The position numbers were made by a program, and so were the translations under genes. From NCBI RefSeq assembly GCF_012027425.1, contig NZ_SNUE01000002.1, positions 124,001-188,000 on the forward strand: a DNA stretch of 64,000 nt. Reading direction: 5' to 3'. This document shows, piece by piece, positions 39,118-45,852 of this stretch (its first letter is position 1; the number at the start of each line of letters is the position of its first letter). The notes beneath the pieces were generated by a model. That model was not told the DNA's origin, did no database searches, and saw only the letters and a list, made by a program, of their open reading frames with translations. Source of the stretch: Thermococcus sp. MV5 (GTDB lineage: Archaea > Methanobacteriota_B > Thermococci > Thermococcales > Thermococcaceae).

Positions 39118-40236
39118 TTATGTCTCTTCAAGCAAACGCGTTAAAATACCCCACTGTGGATCTTCAAAAGCGTCTTTTTCTGCAACGATTATAAGAGTTC
39201 CATTGTGATGCATGACAAAATCTTTTACTTTATTTAGGAACTTCATCACACTCCTGAAATCATTGTACATTAGCAAGTACTCTAAGCAGTCAAAAACCAC
39301 AATTCCTCTGCTTCCTTTCTCTTCCATCATTCTTAGGTATCTATATGAAAGTTCAGTCATTCTCTCTAAATTGGTTGGGGAGATAAAGTTATCCTTGCCT
39401 TCTTTACTGATTGTGGTTATGAAATAGCGCTCCCAAACATCAGGCACTTCTTTTAGATCTCTAACAAATGCCAATACTGGAATATCTTTCAATGTTTCTT
39501 TTAGAATTGTATATTTTTCCTTGTTCACTATCAAAACCCCAGGTTCTATTGTGATCTGAGGAACTTCTAATGCCCTCAATTCACTGAATTCATCAGAATA
39601 TGTCAGTTTTATTGTGACGGTTGTTAAGAGGACAATCAGCACTGCCGAAACAGCATATCCAATTATTGGATATATTGCTTGGAGATGTTCAGGAAGACCG
39701 TAAATTATTGGAATTGGAAAGAGATGAATTCCAAAAAGTACCAGTCCAATAAAAAGATATCGTGCTTTCCTTCCGTATATGTCCTCTATACTCCTGATAG
39801 AATATCCAGCCAACAGGAAGAATATCCCAGCAGTTGCATGAGAACCCGCCATTACAAGAAAACCTTCTATTATGTCAATTATCTCCATTTTTGCTAAAAT
39901 CTCAAGACCAACAAAGTACAAAGCCAGTAATGGACCTATTAATGAAAACGGCATTACATCTAGAAGTGGTACTTCTCTATCCTCTTCTTTGCAGAGTTCT
40001 ACAGTACCACCAAACATTAAAACAGAAGTTATACTCAAGAACAACCCAATTGCATATGGATTTAGTGTAGTATAATTGATTACTACTAAAAAGTCAAAAA
40101 ACCAAGCCAATGAAATAAACAATGCAGATCTACGTTTGGTTTTTCGATAAACATGGAGAATAAGAGCAAACGCCAAGAGATCTGCTATTAACACAACCAT
40201 TCCCTGAATAGTGGAGACCATTGAGTAGTCTACCAT
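39118..40236 (-). CDS. Seven-helix membrane protein with cytoplasmic DUF835 (KaiC-like) domain
   Basis: A 372-residue protein. The first 215 residues contain about seven membrane helices; the last 150 form a DUF835 domain (PGVLIVNKEKYTILKETL, VPVLAFVRDLKEVP, GIVVFDCLEYLLMYND), a RecA/KaiC-derived fold without a P-loop that is abundant in Thermococcales. Its ATG follows directly the TAA of the upstream PaaK-like gene (TAAATG), so the two are coupled. A sensory or scaffold role is inferred; ligands unknown. Confidence 0.8.
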   Translation of the reverse strand: MVDYSMVSTIQGMVVLIADLLAFALILHVYRKTKRRSALFISLAWFFDFLVVINYTTLNPYAIGLFLSITSVLMFGGTVELCKEEDREVPLLDVMPFSLIGPLLALYFVGLEILAKMEIIDIIEGFLVMAGSHATAGIFFLLAGYSIRSIEDIYGRKARYLFIGLVLFGIHLFPIPIIYGLPEHLQAIYPIIGYAVSAVLIVLLTTVTIKLTYSDEFSELRALEVPQITIEPGVLIVNKEKYTILKETLKDIPVLAFVRDLKEVPDVWERYFITTISKEGKDNFISPTNLERMTELSYRYLRMMEEKGSRGIVVFDCLEYLLMYNDFRSVMKFLNKVKDFVMHHNGTLIIVAEKDAFEDPQWGILTRLLEET

Positions 40237-41295
40237 TTAAATCACCTTCTTGCCCCGTTTGGGGTTTCCAAATCCATCCCATCCAAATGGACCCACGGGA
40301 GGAACTCTACTCATACTCTCATCTTCCATCTTCACGATAAGGAGTTCAGGTCTTGCGATTATTAATCCCATCCTTCCTCGTTCCCCATATCTAGCTATTT
40401 TGTATTGGCCATCTTCTTGAACTAATGGAAATATTATAGTAAATGGATAATTAGGATAATATACAACCTCATTATTTTTAAGCATTCCCACTATATCTCC
40501 AAATGCATAATACCCATAGAGGGGGATGATAGTCGAATCTTTAAAAGTGTTTTGAATTTCTTTGAGAGAGTTAACAGTAATACCGAGTCCACTCAAGATT
40601 ACGGTTTCTATGTTTTCCGGCTCTGGAACAAGAGCAAGCATCTGTGGGCCGGTTCTAATTGTATTGATTCTATCCTTTTCAAAGATTCTTTTAGTATATC
40701 TTGTCAAAGGGGCTAATCTCCCCCTTAATACCTCTTCTAATCTTTTTTCCTCAAGTTCTCGCTTTATTCCGTCAGTCTCTACCCCAATAAAATAGAGTAA
40801 ACCACCATAAGACCATACCAGTTCACTTATCTCCTCCTGATACCAGCCATATGGACCATGAGCTATTGCTCTCATCCTGTGGTTTTCATTATATTTTTTA
40901 TCCAAGCCATAAACCTCATCAAATGAAACTCTCAGATATTTTACAAGAAGCTTTAGATAGTCATATGCCCAGTGTCCAATTGCTCTCTCCCTTGTTGTAC
41001 CTGAGGATTGATAAAAACGAATTCTACCATTGTAATTTTCTGGGAGGAAGTCCAGCCAGTTATTCCGTAAATAATCTTCATCAACAACCAAGCCAGCGTT
41101 AAATATCTTCTCAAAGACCTCATTCAAGCTTCCTTCAAAAATCTGATTTAACTCTATTTTTCCCTTTATTTTTTTCCAATATGGAGTGTTGTCAAAATGA
41201 TGTTCAAAAACTCTTCGAAGATACTCCACGGTCTCTCTTTCGCTGATATTTAAGGGATTCTCATACTCCTCGATTATATCCTTATACCTTAGCAT
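40237..41295 (-). CDS. PaaK-like adenylate-forming enzyme, short form
   Basis: A 352-residue protein similar to phenylacetate-CoA ligase/coenzyme F390 synthetase: NTPYWKKI near the start, P-loop-like YQSSGTTRERAIGHW, then ILSGLGI and YGYYAFGDIVG in the place of the GE..T...YG.TE motifs. The C-terminal swivelling domain is short. It is divergent from a second PaaK-like gene at 41425 and coupled to the DUF835 membrane protein. The acyl substrate is unknown; motif changes may mean a modified chemistry. No good ribosome-binding site is seen apart from GGAGG 8 bases before the ATG. Confidence 0.75.
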   Translation of the reverse strand: MLRYKDIIEEYENPLNISERETVEYLRRVFEHHFDNTPYWKKIKGKIELNQIFEGSLNEVFEKIFNAGLVVDEDYLRNNWLDFLPENYNGRIRFYQSSGTTRERAIGHWAYDYLKLLVKYLRVSFDEVYGLDKKYNENHRMRAIAHGPYGWYQEEISELVWSYGGLLYFIGVETDGIKRELEEKRLEEVLRGRLAPLTRYTKRIFEKDRINTIRTGPQMLALVPEPENIETVILSGLGITVNSLKEIQNTFKDSTIIPLYGYYAFGDIVGMLKNNEVVYYPNYPFTIIFPLVQEDGQYKIARYGERGRMGLIIARPELLIVKMEDESMSRVPPVGPFGWDGFGNPKRGKKVI

Positions 41296-41328
41296 TTATA
41301 ATCCTCCCAGCAACTTTCGAAAACATGA

Positions 41329-41344
41329 TGTATAAAATTACACA
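41329..41344. promoter_or_regulatory. Inverted repeat between divergent PaaK-like genes
   Basis: TGTATAA-AA-TTACACA: arms TGTnTAA/TTAnACA with one mismatch per side, about 35 bases upstream of the minus-strand start and 80 bases upstream of the plus-strand start. It could be a shared operator for both transcripts. Confidence 0.4.
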
Positions 41345-41424
41345 CAGAGGTTATTAATTTTTCTTTATGGTCCAAAAACTAAATAGTTAAATACTAAAAC
41401 TGCATTATTAAAGAGGGTGGTAGC

Positions 41425-42696
41425 ATGACAGGGGTAGTGCTTGGAGATATTAATACCAACGATTTGAGATATACAGCTGAAAAAGCATGCGAAACTACAG
41501 AATTCTGGAAAGAAAAATTCATGGAGACGAATATTGATGAATTGACTCCCAAAAGCCTACTTTCAGCTACTGACAAAATCTTCATAACACCCCACGATTT
41601 GTACAGTACAGATAAACTGTGGCCCACATATATAAAGAATGTGGAAATCTTCCACGGGGTGATGAGAACAAGTGGAACTACTGGGGATCCAAAAAGAGTA
41701 CCTTTTACACATGATGACAAAAAGAGATATCGCCGTCAAGCTCGTTCTTGGGCCATAGAATACCTAGAAGGGTCTATTATGGCATCGTTTACCGCTCCAT
41801 TACCGTCTTCATCCGGAGTTTTTGCAATTGAAGGATTTTCAGATGCAAACATTAGGTATCATCAAATTCCCATCCAATATCTGCGAATGAGGGATGCACT
41901 AATAAAGGAACTAAGAGGAATAGGGGCCACAGGAATATTTGGATTAACTGCTGCAGTATACAATCTCAGTCTAACCCTCCCAGAAGATATAAGAAATGAC
42001 ATTCAACTCATAATTATGGGTGGAGAAACTCTAACAAAAGAGTTAGCAAAAGTAGTTCTTGATAACTTTCCAAATGCAGTAATTTTTGATGTATTTGCAA
42101 GCACAGAGGATGGGCTAACCGGGTATAGATTAATCACAAAGAAAAAAGTAACTCCATTTACCTTCTCAGATTCTTTAATAGCTCTTAAACAGACTAAAGA
42201 CGAAGAGTACAAAGAGTATCATGAAATTTATATAACAAAGGTTATGAAAGAGGGAGAGCTTACAGGATTGCCACTGTTTAACTACAAGATTGGTGACTTA
42301 GCAAAGGTGGTTGACGGAAGAATTGTAAATGTTATAAGAGAAAAGGACACAATAAGCCTCGCCGGAGCAAAACTCCACATAGACCAAGTTATAGACATAG
42401 TTCATAGATACCCCTCCCTAATAGACTTTGTGATAATATATCACCCACTCTCCCCAGAAAATCCAAAACCAAAAGCTACAATAAGAGTAGGATACATGGG
42501 AGAAAAACCAGCCGGTGTAGAAGATGAGATAAGAGAGTTGATATATGAGGCAAATAATCCAGTGAGATATGAGGTAGAAGAGGCTAAGTCATCAGAGCTC
42601 AGAATAGAGGCAGTTCCAGCAAAAGAAGTTAGAAAGAACTTACCCCAAAAACCAGGAAAGACTAAAAGAATTTTCATCGTTGGAAAAGATATCTGA
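41425..42696 (+). CDS. PaaK-like adenylate-forming enzyme, long form
   Basis: A 423-residue protein of the phenylacetate-CoA ligase type. MRTSGTTGDPKRVPFTHDD is the P-loop motif, IIMGGETLTKEL and VFDVFASTEDG correspond to motifs A4/A5, and NYKIGDLAKVV to the hinge region. A C-terminal domain with KNLPQKPGKTKR carries the expected catalytic Lys region. It probably activates a carboxylic acid as an acyl-AMP. Divergent from the short PaaK-like gene. GAGGGTGG precedes the ATG. Confidence 0.78.
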   Translation: MTGVVLGDINTNDLRYTAEKACETTEFWKEKFMETNIDELTPKSLLSATDKIFITPHDLYSTDKLWPTYIKNVEIFHGVMRTSGTTGDPKRVPFTHDDKKRYRRQARSWAIEYLEGSIMASFTAPLPSSSGVFAIEGFSDANIRYHQIPIQYLRMRDALIKELRGIGATGIFGLTAAVYNLSLTLPEDIRNDIQLIIMGGETLTKELAKVVLDNFPNAVIFDVFASTEDGLTGYRLITKKKVTPFTFSDSLIALKQTKDEEYKEYHEIYITKVMKEGELTGLPLFNYKIGDLAKVVDGRIVNVIREKDTISLAGAKLHIDQVIDIVHRYPSLIDFVIIYHPLSPENPKPKATIRVGYMGEKPAGVEDEIRELIYEANNPVRYEVEEAKSSELRIEAVPAKEVRKNLPQKPGKTKRIFIVGKDI

Positions 42697-42811
42697 TTTT
42701 TCTATTTTATTTCTTCTAATGTAATAATCATATTAAAAGGACAAGTTTTCTAAACAAAAAATGCAAAATTATTTAACTTCTTTTTCTTAATCTCCAATAC
42801 AGGTGAAGAAA

Positions 42812-44062
42812 ATGAAACCAAAGATAATCCATGATCCCATACATGGGAGTATGAAAATAAGTGGACTCATTTTGGATCTTATAAAGACACCAGAATTCCA
42901 AAGGTTAAGAAACATAAAACAATTAGGATTAGCATATCTCGTTTATCCTGGTGCAAATCATTCACGATTTGAACACTCACTTGGAACTTACAGTATCGCA
43001 AAAAGACTTGCCCAAGAGCTTGGACTAACTGAGGAAGAGAGTACCATTTTGGAAGCCGGAGCACTTTTACACGATATCGGTCATGGACCTTTCTCACATA
43101 CTTTTGAACAGATATACGAGCATTATGTAAGAGAATATGATCATATGCATCTAGGACAAAATATAATCCTTGGAAAAATAGATATAATTGATGGGGAGAC
43201 TGAGGAAAGACAATTTATCCCAGAGGTTTTAGAGTTCTATGGATACGAACCAAAAGAAGTTGCAGATATTATTTTGGGTAAATACGAAAAAAGATACCTT
43301 GGACAGGCCCTTCACGGGGATGTAGATGTGGATCAGATAGATTACCTCATTAGAGACGCTCATTATACTGGTGTGGCACATGGAATAATTGATCTCGAAA
43401 GACTTCTTAAAATACTTAGAATCCATAACAATGAACTAGTAGTGGACGAAAAAGGAGTAGAAGCTGTAGAGGGTATGATGGTAGCCAGAGCATTAATGTA
43501 TTCTAGAGTTTACTTCCATCATACTGTGAAAATAGCTGAAAGCATGCTAACACGAGCCCTTGAGTTTGCCCTTGAAGACGGATATTTGTGGGAATTCTGG
43601 AAAATGACAGACTGTAGAGTTCTTGTCGAACTTGAAGATCTAGAAGACTATCCAGCAGAAATTGTAAAGCGTATTAAATACCGTGACTTATTCAAAGCAG
43701 CATTATTACTAAATGCTGATGAATTAACAACGGAAGAAAAAAGAGAGCTATTGAATATATACAAAGATATTAAAAAACGTCAAGAGCTTGAACGAGCATT
43801 GGCAAATGCAGTAGGAGCAAAAGAGGGAGAAATCCTAATAGAATTCTCCACAGCAGATCTAATGCTAACTGAACCACGACTAAAATCCACAGAAATTGGA
43901 GTATTAATGCACAATGGAGAAATAAGACCCCTCACCAAAGTTACTCCCCTTGCAAATGCCCTAAAACGGAGACAAACACCCAGATGGGTAGTGTTAATTG
44001 CATCACCCGCCAAATACGTTGATAAAATAAGAGAAGTCTGGAGAAAAGTCATCTTCAGCTGA
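42812..44062 (+). CDS. HD-superfamily phosphohydrolase (dNTPase/SAMHD1-like)
   Basis: A 416-residue protein of the HD domain family COG1078. KIIHDPIHGSMKIS at the start, GANHSRFEHSLGTYSIAKRL, then EAGALLHDIGHGPFSHTFE with the HD metal site, and HGDVDVDQIDYLIRDAHYTGV. Relatives hydrolyse dNTPs. A role in nucleotide pool control is likely. ATG 42812 follows CAGGTGAAG. Convergent with the HTH regulator at 44055, overlapping by 8 bases. Confidence 0.92.
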   Translation: MKPKIIHDPIHGSMKISGLILDLIKTPEFQRLRNIKQLGLAYLVYPGANHSRFEHSLGTYSIAKRLAQELGLTEEESTILEAGALLHDIGHGPFSHTFEQIYEHYVREYDHMHLGQNIILGKIDIIDGETEERQFIPEVLEFYGYEPKEVADIILGKYEKRYLGQALHGDVDVDQIDYLIRDAHYTGVAHGIIDLERLLKILRIHNNELVVDEKGVEAVEGMMVARALMYSRVYFHHTVKIAESMLTRALEFALEDGYLWEFWKMTDCRVLVELEDLEDYPAEIVKRIKYRDLFKAALLLNADELTTEEKRELLNIYKDIKKRQELERALANAVGAKEGEILIEFSTADLMLTEPRLKSTEIGVLMHNGEIRPLTKVTPLANALKRRQTPRWVVLIASPAKYVDKIREVWRKVIFS

Positions 44063-45011
44063 ATATCTTCCTTTTTATCTCTTTTTTAAGCTCTTCAATC
44101 ATTTCCATTAACTCATCTGCATCCTTAATTTCATCAAGTTTTTCTTTGGGAATCAATGGAACTTCCCCTACAACCTCAGTTTTTGTCTTTTCAAGAATAA
44201 AAAGACCATCACTATGAATGATCTTGCTCACTTCATTTACCATTTGGGCTCTTCTCACTGTTGAAGTGGTTTTTCTCTCACTTATACCAGTGAGTATTTT
44301 TAGGCCCTCCTCCTTAGAGATTGCATCAAAGGGTGCCTTTTTAATCTTAACAACACCCATGCCAAAGGTCTCTAAACGTCTAAATATTTCTCTCTCTAAT
44401 TCCGTCTCAGGTTCTACTCTCATTTTAGCCTCAACTCTTGAGTTAAGAATATCAATTGGCTTTGCAACGGGAGCATCAAAGATCTCCTCCAACCTCAGGG
44501 CAATTTCAAGACTCATAGCCTGCTCTCCTTTTTCATAATTTTGAAGACTTTTCCTCGAAACTCCAAGCAATTCAGCAAGTTCTCCGACACTATAACCACG
44601 AGTCTCTCTCAGTTCCTTCAGATACTTTCCATCGACTCTAACATAGAATCCCCCCCTCTCAGCAAAAATTGCGGGAAGCTCATTCTGAACAAGCACATCA
44701 TAGAGCGTTTGAGGATTCAACGCATAGAGTCCATATCTCTCATAAACTACCCCCTCTTCAAGCTCTTCATTCTTTGATTTAAGACCTATAATAAGTGGCG
44801 AAGCCTCAAAAAGCTTTGCTAATCGTTTTAGATCCTCAGCTTGGGCTTCACTGAGAGAATCAATATTCTGAAGAACCTTCACAAATAGAAGTAAAAATAA
44901 TCTACTAGCAGCTAAATCAAAACATGATCCTCTAAATTCCATTCTAGCAACTTTAAATCCAGTGCCTTTGAAGATACCTTCAACAATCCGCAATAATCTT
45001 TCTTTTTCCAT
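44055..45011 (-). CDS. XRE-type HTH regulator with archaeal COG1395 architecture
   Basis: A 318-residue protein. The N-terminal 120 residues resemble an inactive nuclease-like fold (FKVARMEFRGSCFDLAASRLFLLLFVKVLQNI), followed by an XRE HTH (LKELRETRGYSVGELAELLGVSRKSLQNYEKGEQ, about residues 132-165) and a C-terminal region rich in charged residues. The archaeal family UPF0290/COG1395 is annotated as a predicted transcriptional regulator; targets unknown. The end overlaps the convergent HD phosphohydrolase gene. Confidence 0.82.
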   Translation of the reverse strand: MEKERLLRIVEGIFKGTGFKVARMEFRGSCFDLAASRLFLLLFVKVLQNIDSLSEAQAEDLKRLAKLFEASPLIIGLKSKNEELEEGVVYERYGLYALNPQTLYDVLVQNELPAIFAERGGFYVRVDGKYLKELRETRGYSVGELAELLGVSRKSLQNYEKGEQAMSLEIALRLEEIFDAPVAKPIDILNSRVEAKMRVEPETELEREIFRRLETFGMGVVKIKKAPFDAISKEEGLKILTGISERKTTSTVRRAQMVNEVSKIIHSDGLFILEKTKTEVVGEVPLIPKEKLDEIKDADELMEMIEELKKEIKRKIFS

Positions 45012-45210
45012 CATCTCATTTATAACTAATATAAAGGAGTTTAAAAGTTTTTATCGTTCCAAATATGTTGGCAAGTCTAACTTCCTCCCCCCTCCTAAGG
45101 AATGTAGCGTGAAAAAGCACCACTTCTTGAGGATTGTGACACTCCCTACACTTCCATTCATAAAAATTTAAATATTAAATATTGCATATGTATCATGAGA
45201 GGTGTACACT

Positions 45211-45852
45211 ATGATTGAAATGTTAGAGAGGATTCTAGATAATCTTAAATGGGGGGAAACCGTTTTAGTAGAACACTCTACATATACCCCAACTTCAAAA
45301 CTCTTTCATTTAATACTAAACTGGGCCAAAGAGCGAGGATACCTAATCCTTATTGACGATATCCTCGATACTCTTAATGTTTACAAACAACACATGAAAA
45401 TTGCAGGACTAGAAACCAAGATGCTAGACGAAAGTAAAGTCATCAAAATTAGAGGAATTCAGAAGACGGGCAATATTATAGGATATATAAGCCGAAGTGA
45501 TATACCTGTGCTTAATAAAAGGTATCAAGAGATTTTTGAAAATTATTTCAATAGAGAAAGGGTTATCAACTGTGTTTTAGGTTATGAAAAACTATTAATC
45601 ACATCTGGTTCCAAAGAAGAAGTACTACAAAACCTTATAACCCAAGTTATGCCATTTATTGGATTTGAAAAGAGGATAGCCTTCTACTACATCCCAACAA
45701 ACGTCTTAGAGAGAGCTTTTCCTGAAGCACTCCCTCTAATTGAAAGCGTTTCCACAACGATTATTAAACTGGATAAAGCTGGGAAAAATATCTTATTCTC
45801 AATTGTCAAATCGATAGACAATGAGCTTGATGGTATAGAGCTCAGGATTTAG
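45211..45852 (+). CDS. DUF257 (KaiC-like, P-loop-less) protein
   Basis: A 213-residue Thermococcales-specific DUF257 protein. It opens MIEMLERILDNLKWGETVLVEHSTYT, where KaiC would have GxPGTGKT after LLI; here it reads VEHSTYTPTSKLF, so the P-loop is lost. The remaining RecA fold is visible (KERGYLILIDDILDTLNVYKQ). Role unknown; one of three KaiC-derived genes in the window. ATG 45211 follows GAGGTG, with a TATA-like TTTAAATATTAAATA upstream. Confidence 0.78.
   Translation: MIEMLERILDNLKWGETVLVEHSTYTPTSKLFHLILNWAKERGYLILIDDILDTLNVYKQHMKIAGLETKMLDESKVIKIRGIQKTGNIIGYISRSDIPVLNKRYQEIFENYFNRERVINCVLGYEKLLITSGSKEEVLQNLITQVMPFIGFEKRIAFYYIPTNVLERAFPEALPLIESVSTTIIKLDKAGKNILFSIVKSIDNELDGIELRI

Follow-up and report, generated by a model that had tools for sequence, protein, structure and literature searches.

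A conserved three-gene locus of Thermococcaceae encoding a predicted half-ANL enzyme, a predicted PaaK-like ANL enzyme and a DUF835 membrane protein

The 64,000-nucleotide stretch of Thermococcus sp. MV5 DNA analysed here (the window) contains three adjoining genes of interest: two that encode putative adenylate-forming (ANL) enzymes of different length, here named SHORT and LONG, and one that encodes a membrane protein bearing a DUF835 domain (Table 1). As a preliminary description of the locus had stated, the two enzyme genes are divergent, and the 129-bp gap between them contains TATA-like elements for each direction, as read by eye. The direct coupling of SHORT to the membrane protein gene was likewise confirmed. 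The stop codon of SHORT abuts the DUF835 start codon with zero gap (junction AAGGTGATT-TAA-ATG), and the GGTGA ribosome site of the DUF835 gene lies within the last codons of SHORT; in most relatives examined, the junction takes the form of TGA-ATG, TAGTATG or a small overlap. The description had also placed a palindrome between the divergent genes. Only one perfect palindrome of at least 8 bp can be named there, TTTCGAAA, and it is not conserved past close relatives; since it is missing from 18 of the 21 intergenic regions examined, it was rejected as a regulatory site.

Table 1. Features of the three-gene locus, numbered from the first position of the window
Feature	Position	Strand	Length and assignment
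DUF835 membrane protein	39118-40236	-	372 aa
SHORT	40237-41295	-	352 aa; predicted EhpF/GriC-like half-ANL enzyme consisting of the N-terminal adenylation domain
Divergent intergenic region SHORT/LONG	41296-41424	.	129 bp
LONG	41425-42696	+	423 aa; predicted complete PaaK-type ANL enzyme

The membrane protein displays seven hydrophobic segments at about residues 9-209, followed by a DUF835 domain (PF05763) at residues 239-369 (E 1.1e-32; 113.1 bits against a gathering cut-off of 33.1), in agreement with the seven-helix DUF835 protein first described. Among the 14 orthologues compared, the KaiC-derived domain retains a Walker-B-like stretch (DCLEYL), and none has the Walker A motif (GxxxxGKT) by which an active KaiC-type ATPase would be recognized. 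Work on archaeal signalling regards DUF835 as an inactivated KaiC (iKaiC) domain (PMC5847659). Whereas the archaeal iKaiC proteins tabulated in that work are response-regulator fusions, the domain is here fused to seven helices and coupled to a putative ANL enzyme.

SHORT finds no match in Pfam or NCBIfam, and its orthologues return sporadic weak hits at best. In profile comparison, EhpF is matched over residues 20-344 (1.3e-7), and in a Foldseek search with a structure model of SHORT (pLDDT 84) five EhpF chains rank first (best 3.7e-17). Aligned by hhalign, SHORT matches a profile of eight EhpF relatives at 1.9e-20 over 318 columns, compared with a weaker 2.6e-8 for LONG, to which its homology spans 206 columns. 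The model presents the ANL N-terminal fold with a Gly/Ser/Thr-rich ATP loop (P-loop YQSSGTT at residues 95-101), and the ATP loop, Lys178 and Arg330 are invariant in SHORT and common to the EhpF relatives. Profile and predicted fold, with homology over the full length and no C-terminal domain, identify SHORT as an EhpF/GriC-type half-ANL enzyme. The earlier designation of the genes as a PaaK-like pair accordingly stands for LONG but not for SHORT, which both lines of evidence clearly place among adenylate-forming proteins, grouped with the EhpF/GriC half-enzymes; the suggested acyl or aryl activation fits the predicted folds. The A5 glutamate and A7 aspartate are missing in SHORT, which has YGYYxFGD and EDE/ENE instead. 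In the EhpF relatives the A5 glutamate is missing as well, but ERD is kept where SHORT has EDE/ENE, and with these residues missing or replaced, catalysis by SHORT is not assured. Relatives outside the phylum were sought in plasmids, phages and viral contigs, and genome contigs were scanned by pattern, which returned Thermococci records only.

LONG gives a significant AMP-binding match in Pfam and, judged by its motifs and modelled fold, is a complete PaaK-like adenylate-forming enzyme. Glu228 (A5), Asp291 (A7) and Arg305/Asp308 (A8) are invariant over 21 orthologues, which also present a TSGTTG loop and a GKTKR C-terminal motif at residues 411-415; the P-loop, the A5, A7 and A8 residues, a C-terminal domain with a basic A10 motif and the predicted fold together place LONG in the ANL superfamily. 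The structure model, of moderate confidence (pLDDT 75), finds its best matches in BT_0428 and PaaK. LONG has its fold, ANL motifs and similar length in common with BT_0428 and the PaaK-type phenylacetate-CoA ligases, but the identity over the structural alignment is only about 15%, and LONG scores far below the curated NCBIfam cut-offs for PaaK (haloarchaeal model NF041878; 20.9 bits against 700) and for coenzyme F390 synthetase (TIGR03335; 29.8 bits against 458.7). The best sequence-profile matches in the PDB are DltA and NRPS adenylation domains, but the carrier-protein acceptor of these systems is missing: a phosphopantetheine carrier protein (PF00550) was found in 0 of 94 genomes, with a control positive in 11 of 14. 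In this genome, as in many other carriers, LONG is the only Pfam-detectable ANL protein (PF00501), and some carriers have a second protein of about 656 aa, by length an acetyl-CoA synthetase.

Of the 94 Thermococcaceae genomes covered by a gene-neighbourhood survey, 56 carry SHORT, as 54 adequate matches, a broken gene (G078) and a gene cut by a contig end (G058), and LONG is present in the same 56; the two are present or absent together throughout, bar two genomes in which SHORT alone is broken. The apparent lack of SHORT in G058 was dismissed as a contig break, the last 27 residues lying on contig 64. LONG adjoins SHORT divergently in all 54 genomes with an adequate SHORT match, across four genera, and DUF835 lies directly downstream of SHORT in 51 of the 51 testable genomes, namely those for which the match table places the two genes on a single contig; among the remaining three, two appear to be cut off at a contig end, and G063 has a partial DUF835 beside SHORT. 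This linkage is far beyond chance and bears out the conserved three-gene set that had been proposed. Unlinked genes in relatives, named beforehand as the finding that would speak against such a set, were not encountered for the two enzymes. No paper describing the set was found in the literature searched, in line with the statement that no known pathway uses it. Taken as a whole, the preliminary description was right about adenylate-forming enzymes of two lengths, the coupling and the conserved set, and needs correction on SHORT as a PaaK-like enzyme, on the palindrome, which is not conserved, and on DUF835, which is less strictly tied to the set. Purifying selection acts on the whole trio, dN/dS being 0.15 for DUF835 and 0.055-0.104 for the two enzymes.

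Genomes without the enzymes reveal how the trio comes apart. Neither SHORT nor LONG is found in genus g3 (0 of 9 genomes) or in the sole genome of g6. In G016, G023, G040 and G052, which lack the enzymes, DUF835 remains next to the neighbouring HD gene, and it occupies other sites in G019, G030 and G033. Weak extra matches to SHORT in G016 and G040 are N-terminal remnants adjoining DUF835, and a SHORT remnant persists between DUF835 and the HD gene where LONG is gone. In a phylogenetic tree, the DUF835 proteins of enzyme-less genomes nest within the DUF835 clade of the trio, and SHORT and LONG were therefore probably lost jointly while DUF835 stayed. DUF835 is the looser member of the trio, and because some genomes devoid of both enzymes still keep an orthologue of it, its function may not be specific to them. 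SHORT can also be disrupted alone: in G078 (L035) and G069 (L050), natural SHORT-minus strains, stop codons break SHORT and leave LONG and DUF835 intact, so that SHORT is evidently not always needed. These stops are real lesions; read-through of TAG in SHORT was rejected, as the in-frame TAG inspected (L029) lies at the normal C-terminus and not internally. Elsewhere, extra ORFs, perhaps mobile elements, are inserted between SHORT and DUF835 (G077, L034) or between SHORT and LONG (G081, L036).

Beyond LONG lies a conserved neighbouring pair (42803-45014) composed of an HD/HD_assoc_2 protein (419 aa; 42803-44062) and, convergent with it, a regulator of the XRE type (319 aa; 44055-45014). Both genes remain where the enzymes are gone and were thus rejected as members of the module. 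A DUF257 protein (45202-45852; 4.5e-45) follows, and of the loci mapped, the window and G076 alone have it at this position. A link to defence systems was rejected, none of the three proteins having a PADLOC match, and so was an origin from a virus or plasmid, since there was no match to phages, no relative on viral contigs and no hit to thermococcal plasmids.

The known relatives of SHORT provide the closest guide to its chemistry. EhpF from Pantoea agglomerans (PDB 3HGU/3HGV/3L2K), of the D-alanylgriseoluteic acid pathway, is a half-ANL enzyme that, like SHORT, has no C-terminal domain, and it gives both a full-length profile match and the best fold match to SHORT. In the grixazone biosynthesis of Streptomyces griseus, the adenylating GriC and its partner GriD form a reductase that turns an aryl acid into the aldehyde (PMC10179220), and the haloarchaeal homologue of SHORT has relatives among records annotated as 'arylcarboxylate reductase'. 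An aldehyde dehydrogenase (ALDH) gene directly follows the EhpF-group gene in the viewed loci of Pantoea, E. coli, Burkholderia, one Streptomyces and Halalkalicoccus, and other genes adjoin it in three Streptomyces loci. Whereas most of the viewed EhpF-group loci have this abutting gene, and the eight EhpF relatives an EGVY-like tail, SHORT is without both and is coupled to DUF835 instead. An ALDH-family partner, as a split carboxylic acid reductase would call for, is not in the locus, and in contrast to GriC, SHORT is without such a reductase in most carrier genomes also: no ALDH gene was found anywhere in 39 of the 56 (control positive in 14 of 14), and in the other 17 it is unlinked. The carriers have no separate LuxC gene, the LuxC matches found falling on the same ALDH genes. 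With the ALDH gene missing in most carriers and the carrier protein in all, neither known fate of the adenylate, reduction by an ALDH or loading onto a carrier, is generally available.

Two further loci came to light among these relatives. Plasmid 2 of Halalkalicoccus jeotgali (L096 5983-8599) encodes an unannotated relative of EhpF (8e-37 to EhpF) that adjoins an ALDH gene and a sodium:solute symporter, and the pair is likely a haloarchaeal split carboxylic acid reductase. On an E. coli plasmid (L101 3950-6384), an EhpF-ALDH pair and an NRPS gene accompany biosynthesis genes of the phenazine type.

The explanation favoured here, though only tentatively, is that the trio forms an accessory membrane-linked carboxylate-activation module. 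SHORT would make an acyl- or aryl-adenylate and, without a C-terminal domain, could not make a thioester itself; LONG would activate the same or a second carboxylate and perform the second half-reaction, to a CoA thioester or an amide; and the DUF835 protein would hold SHORT at the membrane and regulate it, or else receive its product. We infer the catalytic activity, the pathway shared by SHORT and LONG and the role of DUF835. The module is favoured because of the linkage (54/54 and 51/51), the co-loss of the enzymes, the SHORT remnant left where LONG is gone and the purifying selection, because of the intact motifs of LONG, the predicted folds of both enzymes and the conserved SHORT/DUF835 coupling, and because LONG is the sole PF00501 protein here while ALDH genes occur in only 17 of 56 carriers and the PP-binding carrier protein in 0 of 94 genomes. 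Counting against it are the deviant A5 and ERD positions of SHORT, the two genomes with SHORT broken and LONG intact, the survival of DUF835 in genomes devoid of both enzymes and the moderate confidence of the LONG model.

The main rival, which we hold to be unlikely, assigns SHORT a regulatory or structural role as a catalytically weak partner subunit of LONG, within a hetero-oligomer of two related ANL cores. The homology of the two proteins over 206 columns, their obligate pairing and co-loss, and the deviation of SHORT from the standard A5 and A7 residues would all suit such a subunit, but SHORT keeps the invariant ATP loop, Lys178 and Arg330, as do the EhpF relatives, and LONG survives where SHORT is broken (G078, G069). 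The EhpF relatives, moreover, are likewise without the A5 glutamate, and yet EhpF is reportedly needed in its pathway. A sensory pathway, an idea already raised in the preliminary description, in which the KaiC-derived DUF835 domain binds the acyl-adenylate of SHORT as a signal and LONG makes or removes the acid, appears improbable. The tight coupling of SHORT to DUF835 and the treatment of this domain as an iKaiC of archaeal signalling (PMC5847659) speak for it, but a nucleotide-binding motif is not evident in the domain, and no output gene is conserved with the trio except HD and XRE, which occur without it too. Ranked just behind, and improbable as well, is a split carboxylic acid reductase resembling EhpF-EhpG or GriC-GriD, in which SHORT would supply the adenylate for conversion to the aldehyde by a reductase encoded at another locus; the closest characterised relatives of SHORT do work with a downstream ALDH-family protein (GriC/GriD; PMC10179220), but the absence of an ALDH gene from 39 of 56 carriers and of a separate LuxC gene, and the lack of the EGVY-like tail in SHORT, argue otherwise. 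That the three genes are chance neighbours, adjacent only through common descent, is very improbable, for although the right-hand order (HD, XRE, often TiaS) is conserved as well, the trio is intact and unchanged while its left flank varies by group (RNase P p30 side or a MoeA-like gene, named by eye), adjacency extends over 54/54 genomes from four genera, and loss of the one enzyme goes with loss of the other.

These findings give SHORT, a conserved archaeal family without a Pfam or NCBIfam model, a predicted fold, a family and a testable chemistry, and tie a DUF835 membrane protein, of a family of unknown function, to a specific enzyme pair. They also indicate that half-enzymes of the EhpF/GriC type occur in genomes without their reductase, so that, provided SHORT is active, its acyl-adenylate must have another fate. 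As SHORT and LONG are the only ANL enzymes detected in this genome, the phenotype of a deletion should be clean. A bolder reading, as improbable as the split reductase, is that a half-ANL enzyme has swapped its reductase for a membrane receptor, with DUF835 reading or using the acyl-adenylate of SHORT or the substrate-loaded SHORT itself; if this were true, archaea would have a sensory or membrane-modifying pathway built on carboxylate adenylation.
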